Assembly (NCBI RefSeq): GCF_000769405.2
Contig: NZ_CP053440.1
Span: 62,001 to 126,000 of the forward strand
Length of the DNA: 64,000 nucleotides
Source of the DNA: Rhizobium brockwellii
GTDB lineage: Bacteria; Pseudomonadota; Alphaproteobacteria; Rhizobiales; Rhizobiaceae
Direction: 5' to 3'
Shown here: piece by piece, positions 7,138 through 24,316 of the stretch
How the letters are laid out: each line of letters opens with the position of its first letter
Position numbering within the stretch: position 1 is the stretch's first letter
Translations under genes and position numbers: made by a program
The notes under the pieces: generated by a model
Told to the model about the DNA's origin: nothing
Database searches by the model: none
What the model saw: only the letters and a program-made list of their open reading frames with translations

Positions 7138-7475
7138 GGCACGATTCCCCCGTGATGAGCAGGCGGTCTTGAATCTGCTGTCGTCGATGCAGGGTTATTC
7201 GTCTGCTCGGCCTCGTCAAACCCCCTGATGGCGGCAGATTTTCACACTGGAATGCGATGCTTCTGGAATCGGTGGGTCGAGAAGTATTTGTTTTAAAATC
7301 ATTTTTTCTAGAGCACCCTATCCATTCGGATTGGTTCGCTGCCATCCGTACCGGCCGATGACCCATCCGAATCACTTCCGCACCTACTCATTTCCGAACT
7401 TCCAAGCCGGGGCGGACTGCGGCACCGTAAGCCCATGAATTGCCCAGAGCGAATTGCGCATCAAGGAGGCCGGCC
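7138..7475. promoter_or_regulatory. Divergent intergenic region upstream of the hydantoin-type cluster
   Basis: These 338 bases separate the leftward nitroreductase from the rightward racemase/ABC/DUF917 operon. The AT-rich stretch around 7287-7312 and the GGTTCG/CGGATT repeats around 7320-7370 are the likely regulatory part. No coding sequence is seen. Confidence 0.35.
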
Positions 7476-8246
7476 GTGCAGGATAGCGTCGTAGAAATTC
7501 GCGTGGTGTCACCGATCGTCACCAAAGGATTTCGCAAAGTCGCCGATCTCCGGGCGTTGGAATATCCCGGCATCAAGGTCAGCCACGCGCAGATTACGGC
7601 CGGACCGGGATCGATCGAGAGCGAATTCGAGGCTGCCCTGTCGGTGCCGGGAACGATCGCCGAAGCGATCAAGGCGCAGAATGAAGGCGTCCATGCCGTC
7701 ATCATCGACTGCATGGGCGATCCGGGTCTCAGGCCGTCGCGGGAAGCCGTGACAATCCCGGTGCTCGGACCCTGCGAGACCGGCATGCATCTTGCGGCGA
7801 TGCTCGGCCATCGATTTTCCGTCCTCACCGTCATGCGCCGGCTGCGGGCATCCTTCGAAAACACCGCGGCAGTCGCCGGCCTTTCGACCAAGCTTGCCTC
7901 GGTGCGCAGCGTCGATATTCCCGTTCTGGAACTCGAGGAAGACCTCGACCGGACGAAGGCGATGCTGATCAAGGAAGGCATCCGGGCCGTCGAGGAAGAT
8001 GGCGCCGAAGCGCTCGTTTTCGGCTGCACCGGCCTGATGGGTTGCGCCTTCGCCCTGCGCGAGGGGCTTCTGGCGCACGGGATCGACGTGCCTGTCATCG
8101 ACCCTATCCCTGCCGCCGTTTCCGTTGCCGCTGCGCTTGTGCGTTCGAACCTTGCCCACAGCAAGCTGACCTTCCCGCAGCCGCCCGAAAAACAGTTGCT
8201 CGGTTACGACTATATTCATCTGCCCATGCCGCTTGCGGCCGAATGA
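7476..8246 (+). CDS. Aspartate/glutamate/hydantoin racemase family protein
   Basis: This 256-residue protein has the two catalytic cysteines of the family at C79 (IIDCMGDPGL) and C184 (VFGCTGLMG), which take and return the alpha proton from opposite faces. Among the family it looks most like hydantoin racemases (about 240-250 residues). GTG 7476 is chosen over ATG 7440 because AAGGAGG sits six bases before it. It is the first gene of a rightward cluster with an ABC importer, a hydantoinase-like protein and two DUF917 proteins, so racemisation of a hydantoin-like ring is a sensible inference; the exact substrate is not shown. Confidence 0.8.
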   Translation: MQDSVVEIRVVSPIVTKGFRKVADLRALEYPGIKVSHAQITAGPGSIESEFEAALSVPGTIAEAIKAQNEGVHAVIIDCMGDPGLRPSREAVTIPVLGPCETGMHLAAMLGHRFSVLTVMRRLRASFENTAAVAGLSTKLASVRSVDIPVLELEEDLDRTKAMLIKEGIRAVEEDGAEALVFGCTGLMGCAFALREGLLAHGIDVPVIDPIPAAVSVAAALVRSNLAHSKLTFPQPPEKQLLGYDYIHLPMPLAAE

Positions 8247-8279
8247 GAGAACGCTGGACGTTCCATTGAGAGGACAGAG

Positions 8280-9197
8280 ATGGCGATTGCGCAAACGGGC
8301 ACCATGACACAAACGGAAAAGCGGAAAGGATCGACCGCCGCCTTTCAGGATTTCCGCCTGTGGTGGCTGGTCATCCCGGCGTTCCTTGTCTTCCTCGTCT
8401 TCTTCGTGATCCCGACCGCATCACTGTTCGGGCTCGCCTTCAACAAGTCCGTCGCCGGCGTCATCGCCCTCAACAGCCAGATCACCTTCGACAATTTCGT
8501 CCGCATCTTCACACGGGCGAGCTATTATGAATCGATCCTGCGCTCGATCTGGATTTCCGCCATCGTTGGCGCCGCCTGCCTGTTCTTCGGCTATCCCCTC
8601 GCCTACGTCATCGCAAAGACGGTGAAGCCGAGCCGCGCCACGCTGTTGATGATCCTCGTGCTGTCCTCGATGCAGCTCGACATGGTCATCCGGATGTACG
8701 GGCTGATGGTGCTGCTCGGCGATAACGGCCTCATCAACGGATTTCTCTTGAGGGTCGGGGCGATAACGACGCCGCTGCCGCTGATGTACAATGTCTTCGG
8801 CGTCATCGTCGGGCTGGTGCAGATCACCCTGCCCTTCATGGTGCTGTCGCTGATCGGCATCATCAAAGCCATCCATCCCTCACTGGAGGAGGCGGCGCGC
8901 AGCCTCGGCGCCTCGCGCTGGCATGCCTTCGTCACCATCGTGCTGCCGCTCTCCATGCCCGGCATCCTCGCCGGCACGCTTCTGGTCTTTGCGCTTTCGA
9001 TCAGCTCCTACGTCGTGCCCGCTTTGATGGGCGGCTGGAAGGTGATGGTGCTGCCTATCCATATCTACCAGCAGATCGCCGAGGTTGGGCGCTGGCAGTT
9101 CGGCGCCGCCATCGCCGTCGTGCTCTTCGTGACGAGCATCGCAGCGGTTGCGATCTATCACCAGGCCGCGGTCAGAACCTCGGGAGGGCGTACCTGA
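8280..9197 (+). CDS. ABC transporter permease (PotB-like)
   Basis: This 305-residue inner-membrane protein has about six helices, beginning WWLVIPAFLVFLVFFVIPTA. The cytoplasmic coupling loop EEAARSLGASRWHAF is the EAA motif that docks on the ATPase. Its type is the spermidine/putrescine (PotB/PotH) branch. A purine-rich AGAGGACAGAG precedes ATG 8280, and its stop overlaps the next permease start (TGATG), so the two are translationally coupled. It pairs with the permease at 9197 to form the channel of the importer. Confidence 0.9.
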   Translation: MAIAQTGTMTQTEKRKGSTAAFQDFRLWWLVIPAFLVFLVFFVIPTASLFGLAFNKSVAGVIALNSQITFDNFVRIFTRASYYESILRSIWISAIVGAACLFFGYPLAYVIAKTVKPSRATLLMILVLSSMQLDMVIRMYGLMVLLGDNGLINGFLLRVGAITTPLPLMYNVFGVIVGLVQITLPFMVLSLIGIIKAIHPSLEEAARSLGASRWHAFVTIVLPLSMPGILAGTLLVFALSISSYVVPALMGGWKVMVLPIHIYQQIAEVGRWQFGAAIAVVLFVTSIAAVAIYHQAAVRTSGGRT

Positions 9198-10000
9198 TGC
9201 GTGAAGAATCCGCCATCCCCATTGCCTTCAAGGGCATTTCGCTGCTGTCGCTGGCGATCCTCCTGGTGCCGGTCTTCATCGTGGTGCTCGCCGGCCTGAA
9301 CTCGGGTGACTACCTGACCTTTCCGCCGGAGGGTCTGTCGCTACGCTGGATACAGGCGTTCCTGACCTCACCGGTGTTCCTCTCGGCCTATGGTGTCAGT
9401 TTCATGATCGCATTGGTCTCGACGCTGATCTCGACCGTGATCGGCACGATGGCGGCGATCTATCTGACACGCTCCCAGAGCCGTACCTCCAGCATCCTGC
9501 GCGGCTTCTTCATGCTGCCGATCGTGCTGCCCGGCGTGGTACTCGGCCTTGCCCTCTATGTCTTCTACGTGACCACCGGCATCGGCCTTGCGCGCACCAT
9601 GCCGGGGCTGATCATCGGCCACGTGATCGTCACCTGCCCCTTCGTCATCGCGACGGTGACGGCGGCGCTGGTCGGCTTCGACCGCTCGCTGGAAGAGGCC
9701 GCCCGCAGCCTTGGCGCGTCGCCCTTCACCGCCTTCCGGCTGGTGACGCTGAAGATCATCGGACCGGCGATCTCGGCGGGCACGATCTTCGCCTTCATCG
9801 TTTCGTTCGGCCAGTTCGAAGTCACGCTGTTCCTGTCGACGCCGAACCTGCAGACGCTGCCGATCGCGATGTATGTTTCCATGCGCTACCAGTTCGAGCC
9901 GACGGCTGCCGCCGCGGGCATCTTCGCCATCGCGCTCGTCATTCTCTCCACCGTCCTAACCTCAAGACTGGTCAACCTGAAACGCACCTTCGGGGGATGA
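9197..10000 (+). CDS. ABC transporter permease (PotC-like)
   Basis: This 267-residue inner-membrane protein carries the EAA coupling loop EEAARSLGASPFTAF and ends in a helix followed by RLVNLKRTFGG. It is the second channel subunit of a polyamine-type importer. It starts one base into the stop of the first permease and is followed 47 bases later by the binding-protein gene. Confidence 0.9.
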   Translation: MREESAIPIAFKGISLLSLAILLVPVFIVVLAGLNSGDYLTFPPEGLSLRWIQAFLTSPVFLSAYGVSFMIALVSTLISTVIGTMAAIYLTRSQSRTSSILRGFFMLPIVLPGVVLGLALYVFYVTTGIGLARTMPGLIIGHVIVTCPFVIATVTAALVGFDRSLEEAARSLGASPFTAFRLVTLKIIGPAISAGTIFAFIVSFGQFEVTLFLSTPNLQTLPIAMYVSMRYQFEPTAAAAGIFAIALVILSTVLTSRLVNLKRTFGG

Positions 10001-10047
10001 ATACCGCTACGCCTTCACATCAATGATAGAGCAAAAAGGGGAACTTC

Positions 10048-11151
10048 ATGACTGAGAAAACGACAGGGCATACCCGCCGCACGATCCTGAAGATGGGCGT
10101 CGCTGCCACAACACTGCCCCTGTTCAACATCAATCACGCCTGGTCGCAGGATGTCGCCTTCGACGGCAAGGTCTTTGATGCCGGCGGCGCGGTGCTGCGC
10201 GTCGGCGAATGGGGTGGCCCCTGGGGTGAGCTGGTCAACAAATATCTGCTGACTGACTTTCAGAAGGAGTTCAACTGCAAGATCGAGTATGACTCGACCT
10301 GGCCCTGGTTCCCGAAATTCGTCGCCGGCGGCGCCGAGAAGCCGCCGCTCGACATCACCAACTGGAACCTGCCGGAGATGTTCAAGACGGCAAAGGCCGG
10401 CGATTTCTTCTTGAAACTCGACGAACTGCTGCCGAACGTACCGAACGCCAAGAACCTGTGGCCCTTCGCCACCGCCAACGGCGTCGGCGTCACCTGGGCC
10501 TTCAACCAGTATGGTTATGCCTATCGCACCGATCTGGTTTCGCCGCCGCCCTCGTCGTTCAAGGATCTCTGGAAGCCGGAATTCGCCGGCAAGCGCGGCA
10601 CCTACATCACCTCGAACACGCTGCAGATGGACTTCTTCCTCGTCGCCTGCGGTATTTTCGGCAAGGATCAGTACGATCTTGACGCCGGCTACGAAGCGAT
10701 GAAGGCACTGATGCCGGCCAAGATCTCCGATTTCACCGGCAACATGCAGACGCTGATGGACCGCGGCGAAGTAATAGTCGCCGTGCTCGACGATGCCGAG
10801 CCGATGCAGGCCCGCGACAAGGGCGCCCCCTTCGCCTTCTGGTATTGGACCGAACAGCAGCCGATCCTGACGCAGACCTATACGATCAGCCGCTACGCCG
10901 AACCGATGCAGAAGAAGCTCGCCTTCGCTCTTCTCGACCGCGCCCTCGATCCGACCTTCATCGGCAATATGGGCAAAGAATTCTACCTGCGCCCGACGGT
11001 CAGCAACGCGGTCCTGCCCGACAACCTCGCCAAGGCCGGCGTCGTCAACAGCGCCGACGCCATCAAGGGTTTCTGGGTGCCGGACTGGAATTCCTACCTC
11101 GAAAACGAAGACGACATCGTCGAAACGGTCAACGGCATTTTCGCCAGCTGA
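10048..11151 (+). CDS. ABC transporter substrate-binding protein, Tat-exported (PotD/F-like)
   Basis: This 367-residue protein has a twin-arginine signal (RRTILKMGVAATTLPLF, Arg 10-11) with cleavage likely near residue 33. The mature part begins with a GEWGGPWGE strand and contains GVTWAFNQYGYAYR and DRGEVIVAVLDDAEPMQARD, typical of the extracellular solute-binding family 1 polyamine branch. It presents the ligand to the two permeases. AGGGGAA precedes ATG 10048. Classic PotD ligands are polyamines, but here the neighbours are hydantoin-type enzymes, so the ligand may be a different small nitrogenous compound. Confidence 0.88.
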   Translation: MTEKTTGHTRRTILKMGVAATTLPLFNINHAWSQDVAFDGKVFDAGGAVLRVGEWGGPWGELVNKYLLTDFQKEFNCKIEYDSTWPWFPKFVAGGAEKPPLDITNWNLPEMFKTAKAGDFFLKLDELLPNVPNAKNLWPFATANGVGVTWAFNQYGYAYRTDLVSPPPSSFKDLWKPEFAGKRGTYITSNTLQMDFFLVACGIFGKDQYDLDAGYEAMKALMPAKISDFTGNMQTLMDRGEVIVAVLDDAEPMQARDKGAPFAFWYWTEQQPILTQTYTISRYAEPMQKKLAFALLDRALDPTFIGNMGKEFYLRPTVSNAVLPDNLAKAGVVNSADAIKGFWVPDWNSYLENEDDIVETVNGIFAS

Positions 11152-11218
11152 TACAGCGGCAGCGGACGGCTTCCACGCCACCCGCTGCTCATCTTCATAA
11201 CAGGAGAGCCTTCGCCGC

Positions 11219-12283
11219 ATGTCCGATATCCATCTGAAAAAGCTCGCCAAATCCTACGGCGACAGCGTCGCGGTCGCCGGCATCGACCTGCACATCGCCG
11301 AAGGAGAGTTCTTTTCTCTTCTCGGCCCATCCGGATGCGGAAAATCGACGACGCTCCGGATGATCGCTGGTTTCGTGCCGCCGAGCGGCGGCGAGATTCT
11401 CATCGGCCGCGACGACGTGACGAGATTGCCGCCGGAGAAACGCGACATCGGCATCGTGTTCCAGAACTATGCGATCTTCCCGCACATGAACGTTGCCGAC
11501 AACATCGCCTTCGGCCTGAAGCTTCGGAAGCTGCCGAAGGAGGAGATCCGCAAGCGTGTCACCGCCGCGCTGCGCCAGGTCGGGCTTTCGGGATATGAAG
11601 AGCGTTTCCAGCGTCAGCTGTCGGGCGGCGAGCAGCAACGCGTCGCCCTTGCCCGCGTGCTGGTGACGGAGCCCCGCATCCTCCTCCTCGACGAGCCGCT
11701 GTCGGCGCTCGACAAAAGCCTCAGGGAGGAAATGAAATACTGGATCAAGGATCTGCAAAAGAAGCTCGGCATCACCACCGTCTATGTGACCCACGACCAG
11801 GACGAGGCCTTGACGATGTCCGACCGCATCGGCGTCATGCAGAAGGCGCACATCGTTCAGGTCGGAACGCCCGAGGAAATCTACGAGCGACCGAAGACGC
11901 TGTTCGTCACCACCTTCATCGGTCATTCGAACGTGATCGATGTCACGGTCGACGCCAATGACGGGCAAGGCATGACGGTGCTGCTGGAGGGAGCCGTGCT
12001 ACCGACGCGCGGTCCTGAAGGCCTTGCCGCCGGACAGGCGGCAAAGCTGGTGGTTCGCCCCGAGAACGTCATCATCGGTCCGGACAGCTCATCCGGCGTC
12101 AGCCTTCCCGCAACCGTTCTCAGCGAGACGTACCAGGGTGCGCTGGTACGCTACCGGCTGGCAGTCGGCTCGCAGGAGATCGTCGCCGAGCGCCAGAACC
12201 AGTCCCGCACCGAACGATTTTCCCCAGGCGCTGCAGTCACGGTCGGGTGGGACCCCGACCGATCCGAGGCGCTTGTCGCCTGA
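11219..12283 (+). CDS. ABC transporter ATP-binding protein (PotA-like)
   Basis: This 354-residue ATPase has Walker A GPSGCGKS (36-43), signature LSGGEQQ (134-140), Walker B ILLLDEP (154-160) and a C-terminal TOBE-like regulatory domain after about residue 240. It powers the importer formed by the three preceding genes. AGGAGA lies upstream of ATG 11219. It completes a standard four-gene importer before the catabolic genes begin. Confidence 0.92.
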   Translation: MSDIHLKKLAKSYGDSVAVAGIDLHIAEGEFFSLLGPSGCGKSTTLRMIAGFVPPSGGEILIGRDDVTRLPPEKRDIGIVFQNYAIFPHMNVADNIAFGLKLRKLPKEEIRKRVTAALRQVGLSGYEERFQRQLSGGEQQRVALARVLVTEPRILLLDEPLSALDKSLREEMKYWIKDLQKKLGITTVYVTHDQDEALTMSDRIGVMQKAHIVQVGTPEEIYERPKTLFVTTFIGHSNVIDVTVDANDGQGMTVLLEGAVLPTRGPEGLAAGQAAKLVVRPENVIIGPDSSSGVSLPATVLSETYQGALVRYRLAVGSQEIVAERQNQSRTERFSPGAAVTVGWDPDRSEALVA

Positions 12284-12367
12284 AGCAACACGGAAACAAC
12301 GATCATCGCCAGCACCGGAGCCATCCGCTCCGGTGCCACGGCCAGGCATATTCTCACGGAGGTCATG

Positions 12368-13909
12368 ATGCGTATTGGAATAGATGTAGGCGGCACGAAT
12401 ACCGATGCTGCCCTGATGGACGGCCCGCTGGTGCTCGGCGCTTGCAAGAGCCCGACCACCAGCGATGTCGGTTCCGGTATTGTCGCCGTGCTGAAGCAAG
12501 TGCTGTCGATGACCGGCGTTTCGGTTGCGGAAATCCAAGCGGTGATGATCGGCACGACGCATTTCACTAATGCCGTCGTCGAGCGCAAGCGGCTGCTCGA
12601 AGTCGCGGCTATCAGGCTTGGCCTGCCGGCGACCAAGGCACTGCCGCCGATGACCGACTGGCCGAAGGATCTGGCCGACACGCTCGGCCGCCACACTTTC
12701 ATGGTGCGCGGCGGCAACGAATTCGACGGCCGCAAGATCGCGCCGCTCGATGAGCCCGAAATCCTGCGCATCGCGGGTGAAATCCGCAGCCGCGGCCTCA
12801 CGGCGGCCTCGATCACCTCGGTATTCTCGCCGGTCACACCCGACATGGAACTGCGGGCTGCCGAGATTCTCGGTAACGAGATCCCCGGTCTGTCGATATC
12901 GCTCAGCCACGAAGTCGGCCGGGTCGGTTTCCTCGAACGCGAAAACGCCTCGGTGATGAATGCATCGCTCGCCGACCTGTCGCGCAAGGTCGTCAACTCC
13001 TTCCGCAACGCGCTGAAGGAGCTTGCGATCAATGCACCCTTCTATATCAGCCAGAACGACGGCACACTGATGGTGCCTGATTACGTCGAGCGTTATCCGG
13101 TGCTGACGTTCGCCTCCGGCCCGACCAATTCGATGCGCGGCGCGGCGATGCTTGCCGGCGAGAAGGAGGCGATGGTCGTCGATATCGGCGGGACCACGTC
13201 GGATGTCGGCATGCTGATGCAGGGCTTCCCGCGCGAATCCGCCGTCGCCGTCGATATTGGCGGGGTCAGAACCAATTTCCGCATGCCCGACGTGCTCGCC
13301 ATCGGTCTCGGCGGCGGCTCGATCGTGCGCGACGACGGCGCCCGCATCGGCCCGGATTCGGTCGGCTACGAAATCACCTCGCGCGCCCTGATCTTCGGCG
13401 GCGATACCCTGACCACGACAGACATCATCGTCGCGGCCGGCCTGGAGGATATCGGCGACCGTTCGCGTGTCGCTCATATCCCGGCAAGGACGATCGAGAC
13501 GGCGCTCGATACCATCCACCGCATGGCCGACGAGGCCGTCGACCGGATGAAGACGAGCGCCGAACCCCTGCCTGTCATTCTGGTTGGTGGTGGCTCGATC
13601 CTGATCTCGCGCGACCTGCCCTCCGCGTCGCGCGTCATCCGTCCTGAGAACGCCTCCGTTGCCAATGCGATCGGCGCTGCGATCGCGCAGGTCGGCGGCG
13701 AGGTCGACCGCATCTTCTCGCTCGAAGGTACCTCCCGCGACATCGTGCTCGGCGGCGCCAAGAGGGAGGCCGAGGAGCGCGCAGTCAAGGCGGGTGCAGA
13801 GGCCGGAACGGTCAAGATCATGGATATCGAGGAGGTGCCGCTCGCCTATCTGCCGGGCAGTGCGACGCGCATCCGCGTCAAAGCCATCGGCGATCTCGTG
13901 ATCGGATGA
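12368..13909 (+). CDS. Short hydantoinase/oxoprolinase (HyuA-like) protein
   Basis: This 513-residue protein starts MRIGIDVGGTNTDAALMDG, the phosphate-1 loop of the ASKHA (actin-like ATPase) fold. A second nucleotide loop, VVDIGGTTSDVGML, lies around 270-283. HyuA and 5-oxoprolinase A subunits use ATP to open hydantoin or oxoproline rings. At 513 residues it is shorter than typical HyuA (about 690), matching the subfamily found next to DUF917 proteins and fused to them in some fungi. No HyuB partner is present. ATG 12368 has GGAGG five bases upstream, better spaced than ATG 12365. It lies 7 bases before the first DUF917 gene. Confidence 0.85.
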   Translation: MRIGIDVGGTNTDAALMDGPLVLGACKSPTTSDVGSGIVAVLKQVLSMTGVSVAEIQAVMIGTTHFTNAVVERKRLLEVAAIRLGLPATKALPPMTDWPKDLADTLGRHTFMVRGGNEFDGRKIAPLDEPEILRIAGEIRSRGLTAASITSVFSPVTPDMELRAAEILGNEIPGLSISLSHEVGRVGFLERENASVMNASLADLSRKVVNSFRNALKELAINAPFYISQNDGTLMVPDYVERYPVLTFASGPTNSMRGAAMLAGEKEAMVVDIGGTTSDVGMLMQGFPRESAVAVDIGGVRTNFRMPDVLAIGLGGGSIVRDDGARIGPDSVGYEITSRALIFGGDTLTTTDIIVAAGLEDIGDRSRVAHIPARTIETALDTIHRMADEAVDRMKTSAEPLPVILVGGGSILISRDLPSASRVIRPENASVANAIGAAIAQVGGEVDRIFSLEGTSRDIVLGGAKREAEERAVKAGAEAGTVKIMDIEEVPLAYLPGSATRIRVKAIGDLVIG

Positions 13910-13916
13910 GGACCCT

Positions 13917-15005
13917 ATGAAGCTCAACAGTCAACAACTCTGCGACCTCGCCGTCGGCGCGGCATTTCTCGGGACCGGCGGCGGCGGCGATCCCTATGTC
14001 GGCCGGCTGATGGTCCAGCAATGCCTCGACGAAGGGCTCGAGGTGAACATCATCGACCCCAAGGAACTGGCCGACGATATGCTGGTCATTCCAACTGCGA
14101 TGATGGGGGCGCCGACCGTGCTGGTCGAGAAGATACCGAGCGGCGAGGAGGCGATGTTTTCGCTACAGCGGCTCGAACGCCATCTCGGTCGCAAGGCGCA
14201 GGCGACCATGCCGATCGAGATCGGCGGCATCAACTCGACGATCCCGCTCGTCGTCGGCGCCCGCCTCGGCCTGCCGATCGTCGATGGAGACGGCATGGGA
14301 CGCGCCTTTCCCTTTCTCGAAATGGAAACCTTCGGCGTCTACGGCGTATCCGGCAGCCCGATGGCCGTCAGCGACGAATATGGCGATTGTGCCGTCATCG
14401 AAGCGGTCGATAACCGCCAGATGGAATGGCTTTCGCGCGCCGTCGCCATCCGCATGGGTGGCTGCGCCTATATCGCCGAATATGCGATGTCGGGCGCCGA
14501 CGTCAAACGCACCGCCATCCCGAACACGCTGAGTCTTGCCATCCGCATCGGCGAAGTCCTGCGCAAGGCGAAGTCCTCGCACGAGAACCCGATCGAGGCG
14601 CTGCTCGGCTTTCTGCCTTCGACGCTCTATCGCTACGGGCGCATCATCTTCGGCGGCAAGATCACCGATGTCATGCGCGCGACCAAGGCAGGATTTTCGA
14701 TCGGCCGCGTCACGATCGGCGGGCTGCCGCCCTTCGGCTCGACGATGGAGATCGAGATCCAGAACGAGAACCTGATCGCCCGCGTCGACGGCAAGGTGAA
14801 GGCGATCGTGCCCGATCTCATCTGCATCATGAACACGGAAACGGCCGAACCCATCACCAGCGAAAACCTGCGCTACGGACAGCGCGTCACCGTGCTTGCC
14901 GTTTCCGTTCCCGAAATCATGCGGACACCGGAGGCGCTCGATGTCTTCGGCCCTGCCTGCTTCGGGCTGAAGGAACCCTTCATTTCCATCGAAGAGATCG
15001 GCTGA
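13917..15005 (+). CDS. DUF917 family protein (S-methyl-thiohydantoin desulfurase-like), copy 1
   Basis: This 362-residue protein has the DUF917 hallmarks: FLGTGGGGDPYVGRLM near residues 18-33, EKIPSGEE, IGGINSTIPL, DGDGMGRAFPFLEMETFGVY, and near the end PITSENLRYGQRV and IMRTPEALDVFGP. DUF917 has more recently been linked in domain databases to S-methyl thiohydantoin desulfurase, a step in breaking down methylated ergothioneine-type compounds; I recall this from the domain name and cannot test it here. It is tightly coupled to the HyuA-like gene upstream and to a paralogue 4 bases downstream. Confidence 0.88.
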   Translation: MKLNSQQLCDLAVGAAFLGTGGGGDPYVGRLMVQQCLDEGLEVNIIDPKELADDMLVIPTAMMGAPTVLVEKIPSGEEAMFSLQRLERHLGRKAQATMPIEIGGINSTIPLVVGARLGLPIVDGDGMGRAFPFLEMETFGVYGVSGSPMAVSDEYGDCAVIEAVDNRQMEWLSRAVAIRMGGCAYIAEYAMSGADVKRTAIPNTLSLAIRIGEVLRKAKSSHENPIEALLGFLPSTLYRYGRIIFGGKITDVMRATKAGFSIGRVTIGGLPPFGSTMEIEIQNENLIARVDGKVKAIVPDLICIMNTETAEPITSENLRYGQRVTVLAVSVPEIMRTPEALDVFGPACFGLKEPFISIEEIG

Positions 15006-15009
15006 ACAC

Positions 15010-16098
15010 ATGGCAATCATCACCAACGAGGATATCGACGATCTGGCGGTCGGCGCGGCCCTTCTCGGCACCGGCGGCGGCGGCGATCCCTATATCGGCA
15101 AACTCATGGCGAAAGCGGCGATCGAACGCCACGGTCCTGTCGATCTTCTGCCGCTCGACGATGTGCCTGATGGCATCGAGGTCGCCGCCTGCGGCGCGAT
15201 GGGGGCGCCAACGATCCTGATCGAGAAGATGCCGAGCGGCGAAGAGATCGGGCTTGCGCTCAGGGCTTACGAGAAGCGTGTCGGCAAGGCGATGGGGGCG
15301 ATCATCCCCTTCGAGGCCGGCGGCATCAACTCAATGGTGCCGATCATGCTGGCGGCGGAATGCCGGCTCCCGGTTATCGACGCGGACGGCATGGGCCGTG
15401 CCTTTCCGCAGCTCGAAATGGAGACCTTCAACGTCTACGGCGTGCCTGCCGCACCCGTGACCGTCGCCGACGAGCAGGGCAACGTCGTCATCATCGAGAC
15501 GGAAAGTGCGGCCAAGGCGGAATGGCTCGCTCGCGGCGTGACGATCCGCATGGGCGGCCAGTCCTACATTGTCAATTACGGCATGGATGGCCGCACGACC
15601 CGTCGCGTATCCGTTCCCGGAACGATGTCGCTTGCCATCGGCATCGGGCGTACCATCCGGCTGGCGCTTGCCGCGCATCGCGATCCGCTCGCCGACCTGA
15701 TCGAATTCTTCTCCGGAACGCATTACGAGACCGCGCGCCTTCTGGCCTCGGGAAAGGTGGTCGACGTCTCGCGGCGCGAGCAGAACGGCTGGTCGGTCGG
15801 CGTCGTGACGATCGAACCTTTCGACACAAGCCGCAGGCCGGTGCGCATCCAGATCCAGAACGAGAATCTGGTAGCTGAGGAAGACGGCAGGGTGCTGGCG
15901 ATCGTGCCGGATCTCATCTGCATCCTCGAAGCCGATACTGCCGAACCGATAACCACCGAACGCCTGCGTTATGGCCAGCGGGTCAACGTGCTTGGCGTCA
16001 AAGTGCCGCCGATCATGCGCACACCGGAGGCATTGGACGTCTTCGGGCCCGCCGCCTTCGGCCTGACGCAGAATTACGCACCGCTCGAAGCCGGTTAG
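15010..16098 (+). CDS. DUF917 family protein (S-methyl-thiohydantoin desulfurase-like), copy 2
   Basis: This protein is exactly as long as copy 1 (362 residues) and aligns with it end to end. Shared motifs include LLGTGGGGDPYIGKLM, EKMPSGEE, EAGGINSMVP, DADGMGRAFPQLEMETFNVY, PITTERLRYGQRV and IMRTPEALDVFGP. The two copies have clearly diverged in the middle (for example 200-250), so this is an old duplication; the pair may form a heteromer or act on two related rings. The start ATG 15010 has only a weak ribosome site and probably depends on coupling from copy 1. Confidence 0.88.
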   Translation: MAIITNEDIDDLAVGAALLGTGGGGDPYIGKLMAKAAIERHGPVDLLPLDDVPDGIEVAACGAMGAPTILIEKMPSGEEIGLALRAYEKRVGKAMGAIIPFEAGGINSMVPIMLAAECRLPVIDADGMGRAFPQLEMETFNVYGVPAAPVTVADEQGNVVIIETESAAKAEWLARGVTIRMGGQSYIVNYGMDGRTTRRVSVPGTMSLAIGIGRTIRLALAAHRDPLADLIEFFSGTHYETARLLASGKVVDVSRREQNGWSVGVVTIEPFDTSRRPVRIQIQNENLVAEEDGRVLAIVPDLICILEADTAEPITTERLRYGQRVNVLGVKVPPIMRTPEALDVFGPAAFGLTQNYAPLEAG

Positions 16099-16170
16099 AT
16101 CTGGGCTGGCACGGGATATGCTTCTTAAAGCTCGCTAGTTAGGATGGTCGAATGAGCGAGGCGTTTTTGG

Positions 16171-18921
16171 ATGCATCACAGTCGTTCCGAAGGCAAAACT
16201 GCAAGTCGCCCCGGCGGCGGCGAACTGAAGACGCTAGGTTCCCGTTTTCGCCCGCCGCGCATGCTGTTCACGGCCATCGATCGTCCCTTTCCCCTTTCGA
16301 AGATCCGTGACGGTCTGGCGCGCCAGATCGTCGTCGTCCATGCACCGTCTGGCTTCGGCAAGACGGCGCTGCTCAAGGCAGGATATGAGGCTGTCACTTC
16401 CGGCTCCGAGTATTTTCAGTCGTTGTTCGATGGTGGCGTCGGGCATTGCGGCTGGATCACGCTGGACCCCTCGCATGGCCGGCCTGCCGAACTGCTAGCC
16501 GATCTTTGCCTGGCGCTCGGCATCCGCGCCCCACAGCCTCCCGCCTCCCTGCGGGAGCTGTTCGACATCGTCGCCGACGGGGAAAGCGGCGCAATCCTGT
16601 TTATCGACGAGCTCGATATCGCTTCCTCACCCGACGTGCAGGCTTTCCTCGACGGATTTTTCTTAGGTGCCCCCGACAATCTGAGGATCGTCTGCGCATC
16701 GCAGCAGAAACTGCCGCTGCCGCTCGCTCGCCTCAGGGTGCGCGGCCTTGTCACGGAGATCAACGCCGTCGACCTCGCCTTCAGCCGCAACGAGATCCGC
16801 AGCTTGTTTCCACGCAACATCAACACCGGTGACGTCGCAAACTTCGTACGCGCTACCCGTGGATGGCCGGCCTTGACGCAGATCGCGCTCGGCGTGATGG
16901 AGAGCGGCGGTACAGACGAGCGCGACAGGCTGCTGGCCGGCGAACATGCCGATCTTTTCCGCCATATCGACGAAGCGATCCTGCGTCCGCTGTCGCCGGC
17001 GCTTCGCCGAACGCTATGCGTCACGTCGATCCTGGAGGAATTCCCGCTGGAGCTGGCAAGCCATCTTTCCGGCACCGATCTGCAGGCAGATGACCTTCGA
17101 CTGCTCGAGGATATGAGCCCGCTGATCGAAAAGAGCCAGACCGGTGCGGCTTGGTACAGGCTTCATCCGATCGTGCGGAAGTGCCTGACGACCGAGCTTG
17201 CCGGTGATCCCCAGACCGACGAGGCAAGGCTGCACTCCATCGCGGCGATCTGGTTTGCCGAGCGCGCGTTCCTGGAAAGGGCCGTTTCGCATGCGGCGCG
17301 TGCCGGCAACTTTTCGCTCGCCGCACAGACGATCCGGCAGGCCGGCGGCGTCAATCTCTTCATCCGGGCCGGCCACACAGTGCTCGAACATCTGATCGAC
17401 GACCTGCCCGCCGGCGTCATCCACGAATCTCCGAGCCTGTCACTGTGTTATGTGCTGGTCCTCGCGAAGAAGGGGCACATCAAGGCGGCTCGCGAGCGGA
17501 TGGAAGCAATCAAGCAAGGCCGGGCCTTGCATGGTGATGAGTTCCTGACGATCGAGGCATCGACGCTCGATCACATCGACGGGCTGGTCGATATCTATGA
17601 GGATCTTCATCTCGACGATGCGCAGATCTTGCATCTCGAACGAATGGCGTCAGGCTTCTCGCCGCAATCGACCTGGGAGCTCGGCTGGATCTACAACCAT
17701 CTGTGCATCGCTTATACCAGGCGCGGCAATCTCGACCTCGCCCGGCTGAGTGCCTTGAAGGCATTGGCCTACTATCGCGAGGAAAAGACGGCCTATGCCC
17801 AGATCTTCATGCTGATCCATCTGGGGCTGGTCAATACGCTCGCCGGCAACTTCTCGGCGTCGCTGACTTTCTGCCGGGAGGCGCAGGACCTGATCCAAAG
17901 CGCGCAGTGGACCGACGTCAATCTCGAAGCGATCTGCCGCGTGGCGACGGCGGATGTTCTCTACCTCCAGGGCGAGATAGCGCTGGTGGAAAGGAGCCTT
18001 GGGGAAGCCGTCAATGCCGTGGTCCAGGGCGAGGGCTGGGTCGATATCTATTCCCGGATGTTTTCGCTGCTGGCCCGCAGCCGGCTGCGGCTGAGCGGTC
18101 TCGATACGGCAATGGCAGCGATCGACAAGGCAGAAGAGGTCGCCGTCGAACGCGCGCTGCCGCGCCTGAAGATTGCGGCCGACATCATGCGCGTCGATAT
18201 CTTCTCGAAGACCGGCCTGATTGAATCGGCGGTGCTTCTCGCCGAGCGGTTGGTTTCATCGTTGCGCGATCCCGAACTCGGGCGCTTCTGGACGTGGCGC
18301 GAGGAAAGCGATTTCCTCGTTGCACAAGCGCGCCTTCTCAAAGCCCAGGGACGACCGGGCGAAGGGCTCGCCAATCTGGAGATCGTGATGGCGCGAAGCC
18401 GCGCGAACGGCAGCGGTTATCACCTGCTGGCGGCGGAAATCCTGGCAACGGTTGCCGCCTGGAACGACGGCCGGCATGCCCAGGCGCTCGAATATTTCCA
18501 GCTGGCGATCGCGCGTGCCCGCTCGCACGAGGTGACCCAGCTTTTCCAGGACGAGGGACTCGAATTCTCCACGGTCGTTCGGGCGATCGTGCGGCGTTTC
18601 GGCCTGAAGGTCTTCAGTGCCGATGCCGTCGACTTCATCGGTCGCATAATTGGCCAGGGTGAAAAAAGCGCCTTCGGCAAACCCGCCGATAACGGCCGCC
18701 GGATCAAGGGTCCTCTTGCCGGCGGCAAAAATCTTCTCAGCCAACGCGAGCAACAGGTCCTGCTCTGCCTGCACGAAGGTAAGAGCAACAAAGAAATCGC
18801 CCGCGCGCTCGGGCTTTCCGAGCCTACGGTGAAATTCCACCTTAAGAATGTGTTTTCTAAACTGGGGGTCAGTCGCCGGGCAATGGCCCTGGCAGTTTCG
18901 GCTAAATTGAACCTTAGATAG
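16171..18921 (+). CDS. MalT-like ATP-dependent LuxR-family regulator
   Basis: This 916-residue regulator has a STAND/AAA-type NTPase near the N-terminus: Walker A APSGFGKT (58-65) and Walker B AILFIDELD (141-149). A long helical-repeat (TPR-like) sensor region follows, and a C-terminal LuxR helix-turn-helix containing LSQREQQVLLCLHEGKSNKE and EPTVKFHLKNVFSKLG. MalT-type proteins oligomerise on ATP and an inducer and activate transcription. It lies 72 bases after DUF917 copy 2 in the same direction, so it is the natural candidate regulator of the whole 7.5-16.1 kb cluster. The inducer is unknown. Confidence 0.88.
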   Translation: MHHSRSEGKTASRPGGGELKTLGSRFRPPRMLFTAIDRPFPLSKIRDGLARQIVVVHAPSGFGKTALLKAGYEAVTSGSEYFQSLFDGGVGHCGWITLDPSHGRPAELLADLCLALGIRAPQPPASLRELFDIVADGESGAILFIDELDIASSPDVQAFLDGFFLGAPDNLRIVCASQQKLPLPLARLRVRGLVTEINAVDLAFSRNEIRSLFPRNINTGDVANFVRATRGWPALTQIALGVMESGGTDERDRLLAGEHADLFRHIDEAILRPLSPALRRTLCVTSILEEFPLELASHLSGTDLQADDLRLLEDMSPLIEKSQTGAAWYRLHPIVRKCLTTELAGDPQTDEARLHSIAAIWFAERAFLERAVSHAARAGNFSLAAQTIRQAGGVNLFIRAGHTVLEHLIDDLPAGVIHESPSLSLCYVLVLAKKGHIKAARERMEAIKQGRALHGDEFLTIEASTLDHIDGLVDIYEDLHLDDAQILHLERMASGFSPQSTWELGWIYNHLCIAYTRRGNLDLARLSALKALAYYREEKTAYAQIFMLIHLGLVNTLAGNFSASLTFCREAQDLIQSAQWTDVNLEAICRVATADVLYLQGEIALVERSLGEAVNAVVQGEGWVDIYSRMFSLLARSRLRLSGLDTAMAAIDKAEEVAVERALPRLKIAADIMRVDIFSKTGLIESAVLLAERLVSSLRDPELGRFWTWREESDFLVAQARLLKAQGRPGEGLANLEIVMARSRANGSGYHLLAAEILATVAAWNDGRHAQALEYFQLAIARARSHEVTQLFQDEGLEFSTVVRAIVRRFGLKVFSADAVDFIGRIIGQGEKSAFGKPADNGRRIKGPLAGGKNLLSQREQQVLLCLHEGKSNKEIARALGLSEPTVKFHLKNVFSKLGVSRRAMALAVSAKLNLR

Positions 18922-23204: not shown

Positions 23205-23331
23205 GATGGTTCGCCGGAGGAGGCGGGACGGGAGGCAAGGGTATTCCCTCGCCAAGAAGCAACCAGGAACAACCTGCCGCAAACCGGCCGGTGGTCGTCG
23301 TTCGTATGAGCGACCTTGAGGAGGAGTGAAG

Positions 23332-24316
23332 ATGAGGAGACTTATCGTAGCGGCATTTGCCGCATCGCTGTCGCTTGCCGGGGCGGTGGTCGCGTTTGCA
23401 GAGGACGCACCGAAGGTCGGCGTTGTCGTCAAGATCGGCGGCATTCCATGGTTCAATGCGATGGAAGCTGGCATCAAGGAACAGGGCCAGAAACTGGGCG
23501 TCGATGCCTTCATGATCGGCCCGACCAGTGCCGACCCGGCGCTGCAGGTGCGCGCCATCGAAGATCTGATCGCCCAGGGCGTCAAGGTCATCGGCGTGGT
23601 GCCCAACGATGCCAAGGTGCTCGAGCCCGTGCTCACCAAGGCGCAGGCCGCCGGCATCAAGGTCATTACGCATGAAATCACCCTCGCAGAAGGGCGCCGA
23701 CTGGAATTTCGAACTCGCATCGGCCACCGGCTTCGGTGAAGCGCATGGCAAGCTACTCGCCGAGAAAATGGGCGGCAAAGGCGAATATGCCGTCTTCGTC
23801 GGTTCGCTGACCGTGCCGCTCCACAATGCCTGGGCGGACGCCGCAATCGCCTATATCAAGGCAAACTACCCAGACATGAAACTCGTCGGCGAGCGCTACG
23901 GCGTGGCGGAAGACGTCGACAAGAGCCGCTCGACGGCGCTCGATCTCATCGCTGCGCATCCGGATCTGACCGGCTTCCTCGCCTTCGGCAGCCAGGGTCC
24001 GATCGGCGCCGGGCGCGCTATCGAGGAACGCCGCAAGACGGGCAAGATCTTCGTGCTCGGCCCGTTCTCGCCAGGCCAAGGCCAGAAGCTGATCAAATCA
24101 GGTGCAATATCGGGCGGCTTCATGTGGAATCCGAAACAGGCCGGCGAAGTCTTCGTCACGCTCGCCGATCGCCTGATCAAGGGCGAGAGCGTCAAGGAAG
24201 GTGATGACATTCCGGGTCTCGGCGTGATCAAGCCTGTTGGTAACGACATCATCGTCGATCAACTGCTGCCGATCAACAAGGATACGGTCGACGACCTGGC
24301 AGCAATGGGCCTCTGA
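23332..24316 (+). pseudogene. Ribose-type substrate-binding protein gene with a one-base frameshift
   Basis: The first part encodes a signal peptide (MRRLIVAAFAASLSLAGAVV...) and a periplasmic sugar-binding domain up to AAGIKVITHE. The frame then reads nonsense and stops at 23739. From about 23678 the neighbouring frame continues the same protein: SPSQKGADWNFELASATGFG to the normal end at 24316. One extra A in the run 23675-23677 explains the break; removing it gives an intact protein of about 327 residues. It would be the binding protein of the importer at 24.4-28.0 kb. All downstream genes are intact, so this may be a very recent mutation or a sequencing error. ATG 23332 is preferred over GTG 23326. 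Confidence 0.85.

Follow-up and report, generated by a model that had tools for sequence, protein, structure and literature searches.

What compound is handled by a cluster that sets a hydantoin-type racemase and an importer beside a HyuA-type ATPase and two DUF917 proteins? The question is raised by positions 7476–18921 of a 64,000-nucleotide stretch of Rhizobium brockwellii DNA, analysed as a whole and referred to as the window (contig NZ_CP053440.1, positions 62,001–126,000). Nine same-strand genes span this interval with intergenic gaps of −1 to 81 bases: a racemase gene (RAC), the genes of an ATP-binding cassette (ABC) importer (PERM1, PERM2, SBP and ATP), the ATPase gene HYU, the DUF917 genes D917A and D917B, and a regulator gene (MALT). 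HYU and D917A are 7 bases apart, D917A and D917B 4 bases. An earlier note, made from the bare sequence, had named these families, and domain and profile searches recovered all of them in place, open and in one direction. Its nine-gene unit stands, but the upstream limit should be moved to take in the divergent nitroreductase gene NITRO, which, together with an operator-like motif, belongs with the cluster. We find that the cluster is a real, widely kept unit with a HyuA-type/DUF917 pair at its core, and we give about an even chance to the view that it imports a small cyclic amide, with a cyclic dipeptide as the likeliest one, and opens it by means of this pair.

The evidence for the unit comes from two sets of loci. 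A contig scan with HYU alone returned 176 relatives; we retained the top 80, which form 79 loci from Rhizobiales, Rhodobacteraceae, Gammaproteobacteria and Chloroflexota that were compared with the window proteins by tblastn. Because these loci had been selected as closest relatives, we drew a second, order-wide sample of 297 genomes, in which 24 carried HYU at E 1e-100 or better (28 HYU genes in 25 loci; four of these loci, L117, L118, L120 and L121, are also among the 79). DUF917 was present in 78 of the 79 loci, the exception (L057) stopping soon after HYU. A same-strand DUF917 gene accompanied 82 of the 83 HYU genes in the first set (median gap 36 bases, maximum 334) and all 28 in the order sample, at no more than 135 bases. 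Furthermore, 34 of the 79 loci preserve the order RAC-PERM1-PERM2-SBP-ATP-HYU on one strand; as the loci were found with HYU alone, the gene order is conserved beyond chance.

The other components varied more widely. RAC had homologues in 39 of the 79 loci; the corresponding counts were 38 for the Pot-type binding protein, 41 for the regulator and 28 for NITRO, and 27 of the 28 NITRO loci also carried the Pot-type binding protein. Twenty loci had a Dpp-type binding protein, ten an M19 dipeptidase and four an NCS1 permease, with a single locus, L070, carrying both the Pot-type and the Dpp-type binding protein. In the order sample, result rows placed ABC importer genes near 23 of the 25 loci (14 Pot-type, eight with a Dpp-type binding protein, and L138 with two ATPases only). 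The kind of importer thus differs among HYU loci, with Pot, Dpp, OPT, NCS1 and TonB types represented, and HYU together with DUF917 is the conserved core. These counts bear out the catabolic-looking cluster with a dedicated importer and regulator that the earlier note had proposed, and show that it is conserved. The note had named a lack of co-conservation between the enzymes and the importer as refuting its proposal, and the neighbourhood analysis did not give that outcome. The note also took the cluster for a candidate undescribed system, and our literature searches brought up no account of such a unit or of a HyuA-type/DUF917 pair.

The association was also visible from the DUF917 side. PF06032 matched in 11 of 299 Pseudomonadota genomes (10 over the cut-off), and in all six with a DUF917 of at least 177 bits HYU adjoined it. 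Among the weak DUF917s (59–103 bits; G087, G289, G043 and G253; G084, with PF06032 below the cut-off, was left out), tblastn of the surroundings gave no HYU, nor did it around the third copies of G000 and G107, which are also weak. Pot-type loci shared few further families, as neighbour clustering, with nine families scanned with Pfam, gave mainly nitroreductase and M19. Neighbours common to Chloroflexota loci were more numerous (11 loci with a sulfatase family, 10 with FG-GAP proteins), so general synteny may contribute there. Up to five DUF917 copies surround a single HYU in Chloroflexota loci such as L050, L053 and L069. The closest relatives are Rhizobium leguminosarum and its kin (HYU identity 99%), where the block is borne on large plasmids: 53 plasmid records match, and 21 of them cover at least 80% of positions 7476–16098 at one place.

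Does the pair form one enzyme? HYU carries the two phosphate motifs of its family, DVGGTNTD (from D7) and DIGGT (from D273), which match DxGGTxTD and DxGGT and whose D, GG and T are invariant in 10 of 10 alignment rows. In the caprolactamase study (PMC8453981), CapA has both ATP-phosphate motifs and the metal site for lactam opening lies in the B subunit; the mechanism proposed there has the lactam activated by ATP at the A subunit and hydrolysed at the metal site. The simplest reading is that DUF917 would take the B role of HyuB, pairing with HYU in one complex. HyuB (PF02538) itself was found in one of the 79 loci (L063, on the opposite strand and about 6.8 kb from HYU) and in none of the 25. 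The host genome encodes two Hydant_A_N proteins, HYU and a canonical one; HyuB lies about 2 kb on from the start of the canonical HyuA match, and HYU instead is followed by DUF917.

Fused proteins point in the same direction. We searched with a lengthened query meant to exclude HYU proteins of 513 amino acids, and in the best 120 of 3011 matches both domains lay on one chain in 93, a proportion that is not a natural frequency. HYU came first in 91 of the fusions and DUF917 in two, and the named sources include Branchiostoma, echinoderms, molluscs, cnidarians, Trichoplax, Priapulus and the alga Coccomyxa. In a quick tree whose branches are long and whose root is the midpoint only, 87 fusions fell into one group, and well-supported branches force at least four changes. 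The marine invertebrate single-chain proteins (P0246–P0249, P0255, P0257, P0268 and others) are annotated as uncharacterized or hydantoinase-like and make up one large clade in that tree. Other fusions join HYU with an NCS1 permease (P0331) or with Opp/Dpp-type ATPases (P0326 and P0347), which ties it to uptake.

Three observations weigh against this reading. The adenosine motif GxxPGP is not found in HYU, where the aligned stretch reads GYEITS (alignment consensus GYxLxx); no metal site was located in DUF917, whose alignment contains no invariant His or Cys; and HyuB occurs somewhere in 14 of 14 genomes tested. The last of these means that HYU could use HyuB in trans, with DUF917 performing a separate, later step. 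We consider this division of labour quite improbable, since HYU and DUF917 are adjacent almost without exception and are fused in both orders.

In the scheme that we favour, the importer would take up a small cyclic amide, and RAC would invert the carbon adjoining the ring carbonyl, making both hand-forms usable. HYU would then phosphorylate the ring amide oxygen to give an activated imidate, which DUF917, standing in for the HyuB of 5-oxoprolinase and caprolactamase, would hydrolyse to the open acid. Relatives of DUF917 with named activities take a sulfur group off a thiohydantoin ring, which may be a related hydrolysis. With a cyclic dipeptide (2,5-diketopiperazine), opening would yield a dipeptide and a dipeptidase would complete the breakdown, and the LuxR-type regulator would act at the divergent NITRO/RAC promoter region.

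HYU-DUF917 would accordingly resemble the ATP-dependent cyclic amidases, namely 5-oxoprolinase (OplAB), caprolactamase (CapAB) and N-methylhydantoinase (HyuAB). Common to both are a HyuA-type subunit with both phosphate motifs, a two-part arrangement that is sometimes fused and, by our reading, cyclic amide substrates. The known A subunits have about 690 amino acids and GxxPGP, whereas HYU has 514 and a replaced motif, and DUF917 stands in the position of HyuB. Because HyuB and GxxPGP, both criteria for that family, are lacking, we infer a variant of it and not a member.

The family name S-Me-THD raises a further reading, that the cluster breaks down ergothioneine or an S-methyl-thiohydantoin, as the earlier note had suggested from the shared domain name; the DUF917 fold does include thiohydantoin desulfurases. 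This link did not survive comparison with the rest of the genome. A third DUF917 gene on contig C1 (locus L106) lies beside aromatic-lyase, urocanase-like, amidohydrolase and M20 genes in a separate, complete-looking ergothioneine breakdown cluster (L106:5813–13329). There, NCBIfam models scored above their cut-offs for thiourocanate hydratase (1053 against 930 bits), thiohydantoin desulfurase (599 against 440), ErtE (637 against 520) and ErtD (780 against 600); the aromatic-lyase gene passed no NCBIfam cut-off. D917A and D917B reached 75–96 bits on the desulfurase models NF058529 and NF058532, far below the cut-offs of 440 and 450. Queries for the lyase, the urocanase-like protein, the desulfurase-type DUF917 and ErtE matched nothing in the 79 and 25 HYU loci, and the ErtD query matched L037 only, at 30% identity. 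Homologues of all five ert genes, in contrast, surround the weak DUF917s in L104, L105, L106 and L107, with three of five in L103 and none in L102. Because the same genome holds a separate ert cluster with its own above-cut-off DUF917, we rejected ergothioneine as the substrate and regard this reading as very improbable.

Judged from their sequences, the proteins under this one Pfam name are of two kinds, both present in this genome. D917A and D917B, in which each DUF917-protein domain (PF06032, PF20906) scores 186–213 bits, agree at all 40 compared positions, as expected because these were chosen as kept in HYU-linked DUF917s. Residues E71, K72, E101, G104, N106, D125, M127, F131, D251 and R254 differ in all four comparison proteins, which are the above-cut-off member of this genome and three further weak-scoring ones (rows L089 and L096 excluded). 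Relative to the desulfurases, the window proteins share the two-domain build but have other conserved residues and HYU alongside, and the ert lyase, urocanase and ErtE are absent.

We tentatively rank a cyclic dipeptide first among substrates, at somewhat less than an even chance, followed by a cyclic ureide and then an opine or other lactam. The ranking rests on Dpp and OPT importers, linked dipeptidases and the lack of an N-carbamoylase. M19 dipeptidase genes occurred in 10 of the 79 loci, where a rate of 40 M19 places in 14 genomes (one below the family cut-off) would lead one to expect 0.72; a Poisson figure overstates the certainty of this excess because the M19 loci are related to each other. 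In L014 and L025 the M19 gene is the sole one of the host genome (coordinates matched by hand). Annotation of 20 chosen neighbours placed an OPT transporter with an AroM-LuxR gene in L130, AroM genes with a Dpp importer in L127 and an M17 aminopeptidase in L098. Across 106 loci, AroM homologues occurred in 8, OPT in 1, M17 aminopeptidase in 2 and TonB receptors in 6. Similar neighbours are described in the available part of a study of cyclodipeptide-oxidase clusters without a cyclodipeptide synthase, where PF06032, PF01177, AroM, dipeptide ABC and OPT transporters are enriched and peptidase genes are often present (PMC11055893). For some of these families the overlap comes from distant HYU loci alone, that part of the study does not mention HYU, and no oxidase of the AlbA/AlbB type was identified here. 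A Rhizobium isolate is reported to cleave three cyclic dipeptides, with the responsible enzyme left open in the part of the report available (PMC3852281).

Several findings tell against the dipeptide assignment. No M19 gene lies in the window's own locus, some of the loci that do have one belong to related genera, and OPT and M17 are rare (1 and 2 of 106). No cyclodipeptide oxidase was identified, AlbA and AlbB not having been sought in the loci; NITRO belongs to the nitroreductase family, and no cyclodipeptide oxidase appears by name among the 33 chains listed for it. The fold of SBP gives no ligand assignment. The NCS1 permeases, the hydantoin/allantoin-type racemase and the ErtD-like amidohydrolase of L037 fit a ureide equally well.

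A hydantoin or other cyclic ureide (a 5-substituted hydantoin, a dihydropyrimidine or an allantoin-like compound) would be opened by the same HYU/DUF917 chemistry, and its N-carbamoyl product would be finished by an enzyme coded elsewhere. Known NCS1 permeases carry nucleobases, hydantoin and allantoin, and such permeases are found in 4 of the 79 loci and in L097, as well as in the fusion P0331. With a racemase of this type also present, a ureide stays in contention. Three HyuC-family genes over the cut-off lie elsewhere in the host genome. In hydantoin utilisation operons (HyuA/B/C), however, the N-carbamoylase HyuC stands beside the ring-opening enzyme, and here it was found in none of the 79 and none of the 25 loci with one query, which does recover two paralogues from the host genome. 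Dpp and OPT importers and peptidases are also poorly suited to a ureide, so we judge this substrate rather unlikely. Of the hydantoin idea in the earlier note, the ureide possibility survives; its basis was family names, and the N-carbamoylase counts do not favour it.

Another plant-derived lactam, such as an opine lactam, could be opened in the manner proposed for agropinic acid. The agropinic acid and mannopine modules (aga, mot) combine a Pot-type importer with a lactam- or hydantoin-type hydrolase, as here; they are not known to include a DUF917. Opine ligands are not indicated for this cluster: SBP is no closer in fold to opine binders than to binders of polyamines, GABA or sugar phosphates, and Chloroflexota loci and animal fusions are hard to reconcile with opines. 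We consider an opine-like lactam improbable.

Among solved chains, those nearest to RAC bear the names putative hydantoin racemase and allantoin racemase, and its Cys79 and Cys184, which we take to be catalytic-type cysteines, are present in 38 of 38 aligned rows. ATP passed the PotA subfamily model TIGR01187 (362.9 against 355.6) and fell below the equivalog PRK09452 (369.5 against 482). SBP matched no Pfam family at E 0.001, and its predicted model (pLDDT 89.5) resembles many classes of binding protein in fold. On the PotD equivalog it scored 21.3 of 582 bits, a shared fold with barely similar sequence, and in a profile alignment the positions aligned to the acidic ligand residues of PotD, presumably the polyamine site, are not acidic. 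The ATPase and permeases are relatives of those of PotABCD, and the importer's earlier description as polyamine-type serves as a family- and fold-level label only.

The "MalT-like activator" is a LuxR-type regulator that resembles MalT in build only (PF00196 67.5 bits; TPR_MalT 31.7 bits, below the cut-off of 45); it scored 172 of 537 bits on the MalT equivalog. RAC starts with GTG preceded by AAGGAGG. Ahead of the racemase gene, related loci carry dyads like ACCTATCC-N4-GGATAGGT, in which ACC[CT]ATCC often pairs with GGATAGGT. With both strands counted, 22 of 35 loci have this motif upstream of RAC (near-copies L004, L005, L006 and L039 left out), against 106 of 3500 random, mostly coding stretches drawn from these loci. 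This comparison lacks independence, because the motif was picked by shared 8-mer counts in nearly the same sequences; by a row count made by hand, it occurs in 21 of 25 rows from the window or L007–L030 and in 1 of 10 others. The dyad between NITRO and RAC is a candidate operator of the LuxR-type regulator and could serve both genes. Beside HYU-DUF917 in L127 (7776–8855, minus strand) and L130 (12108–13145, plus strand), a racemase-like AroM domain is fused to a LuxR DNA-binding domain, possibly as a regulator that senses the ring compound.

These results predict a concrete function for the unnamed HYU-linked DUF917 proteins and extend it to the fusions labelled uncharacterized or hydantoinase in amphioxus, echinoderms, molluscs, corals and Trichoplax. 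A bolder view, which we hold as possible but on balance unlikely, is that HyuA-type kinases have in DUF917 a second, independent class of hydrolase partner and that HYU-DUF917 is the long-missing opener of cyclic dipeptides, both in bacteria with many kinds of importer and, on a single chain, in marine animals. If cyclic dipeptides are the substrate, the cluster would supply genes for a degradation reported in bacteria, the Rhizobium isolate included, whose enzymes that report left open (PMC3852281), and would bear on plant-microbe signals and lactam-opening enzymes. The features are collected in Table 1.

Table 1. Genes and candidate regulatory elements of the cluster, in window coordinates
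Feature	Position	Strand	Basis or remark
NITRO, nitroreductase-family flavoprotein, 335 amino acids	6130..7137	-	PF00881 6.3e-16; divergent from operon
Candidate operator, imperfect dyad CCCTATCC-ATTC-GGATTGGT	7316..7335		By-eye match to related-locus dyads
Candidate operator half-site ACCCATCC	7361..7368	+	ACC[CT]ATCC counts upstream of RAC
RAC, Asp/Glu/hydantoin racemase family	7476..8246	+	PF01177 117.7 bits, over cut-off
PERM1, ABC permease, PotB-like	8280..9197	+	BPD_transp_1
PERM2, ABC permease, PotC-like	9197..10000	+	BPD_transp_1
SBP, solute-binding protein, Pot/opine/GABA/iron binder fold	10048..11151	+	Fold matches; Tat-like signal by eye
ATP, importer ATPase, PotA-like	11219..12283	+	PF00005 and PF08402; TIGR01187
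HYU, short HyuA-type ATPase, 514 amino acids, core enzyme	12365..13909	+	PF05378 and PF01968
D917A, DUF917 / S-Me-THD-like	13917..15005	+	PF06032 and PF20906; predicted model pLDDT 93.8; proposed hydrolase partner of HYU
D917B, second DUF917 protein	15010..16098	+	PF06032 and PF20906; 50% identical to D917A
MALT, large LuxR-type regulator, MalT-like build	16171..18921	+	PF00196 (GerE) C-terminal; weak AAA and TPR matches

Further along the window, at 23326–24316 on the plus strand, two overlapping frames resemble, by eye, a single periplasmic sugar-binding protein split by a frameshift.

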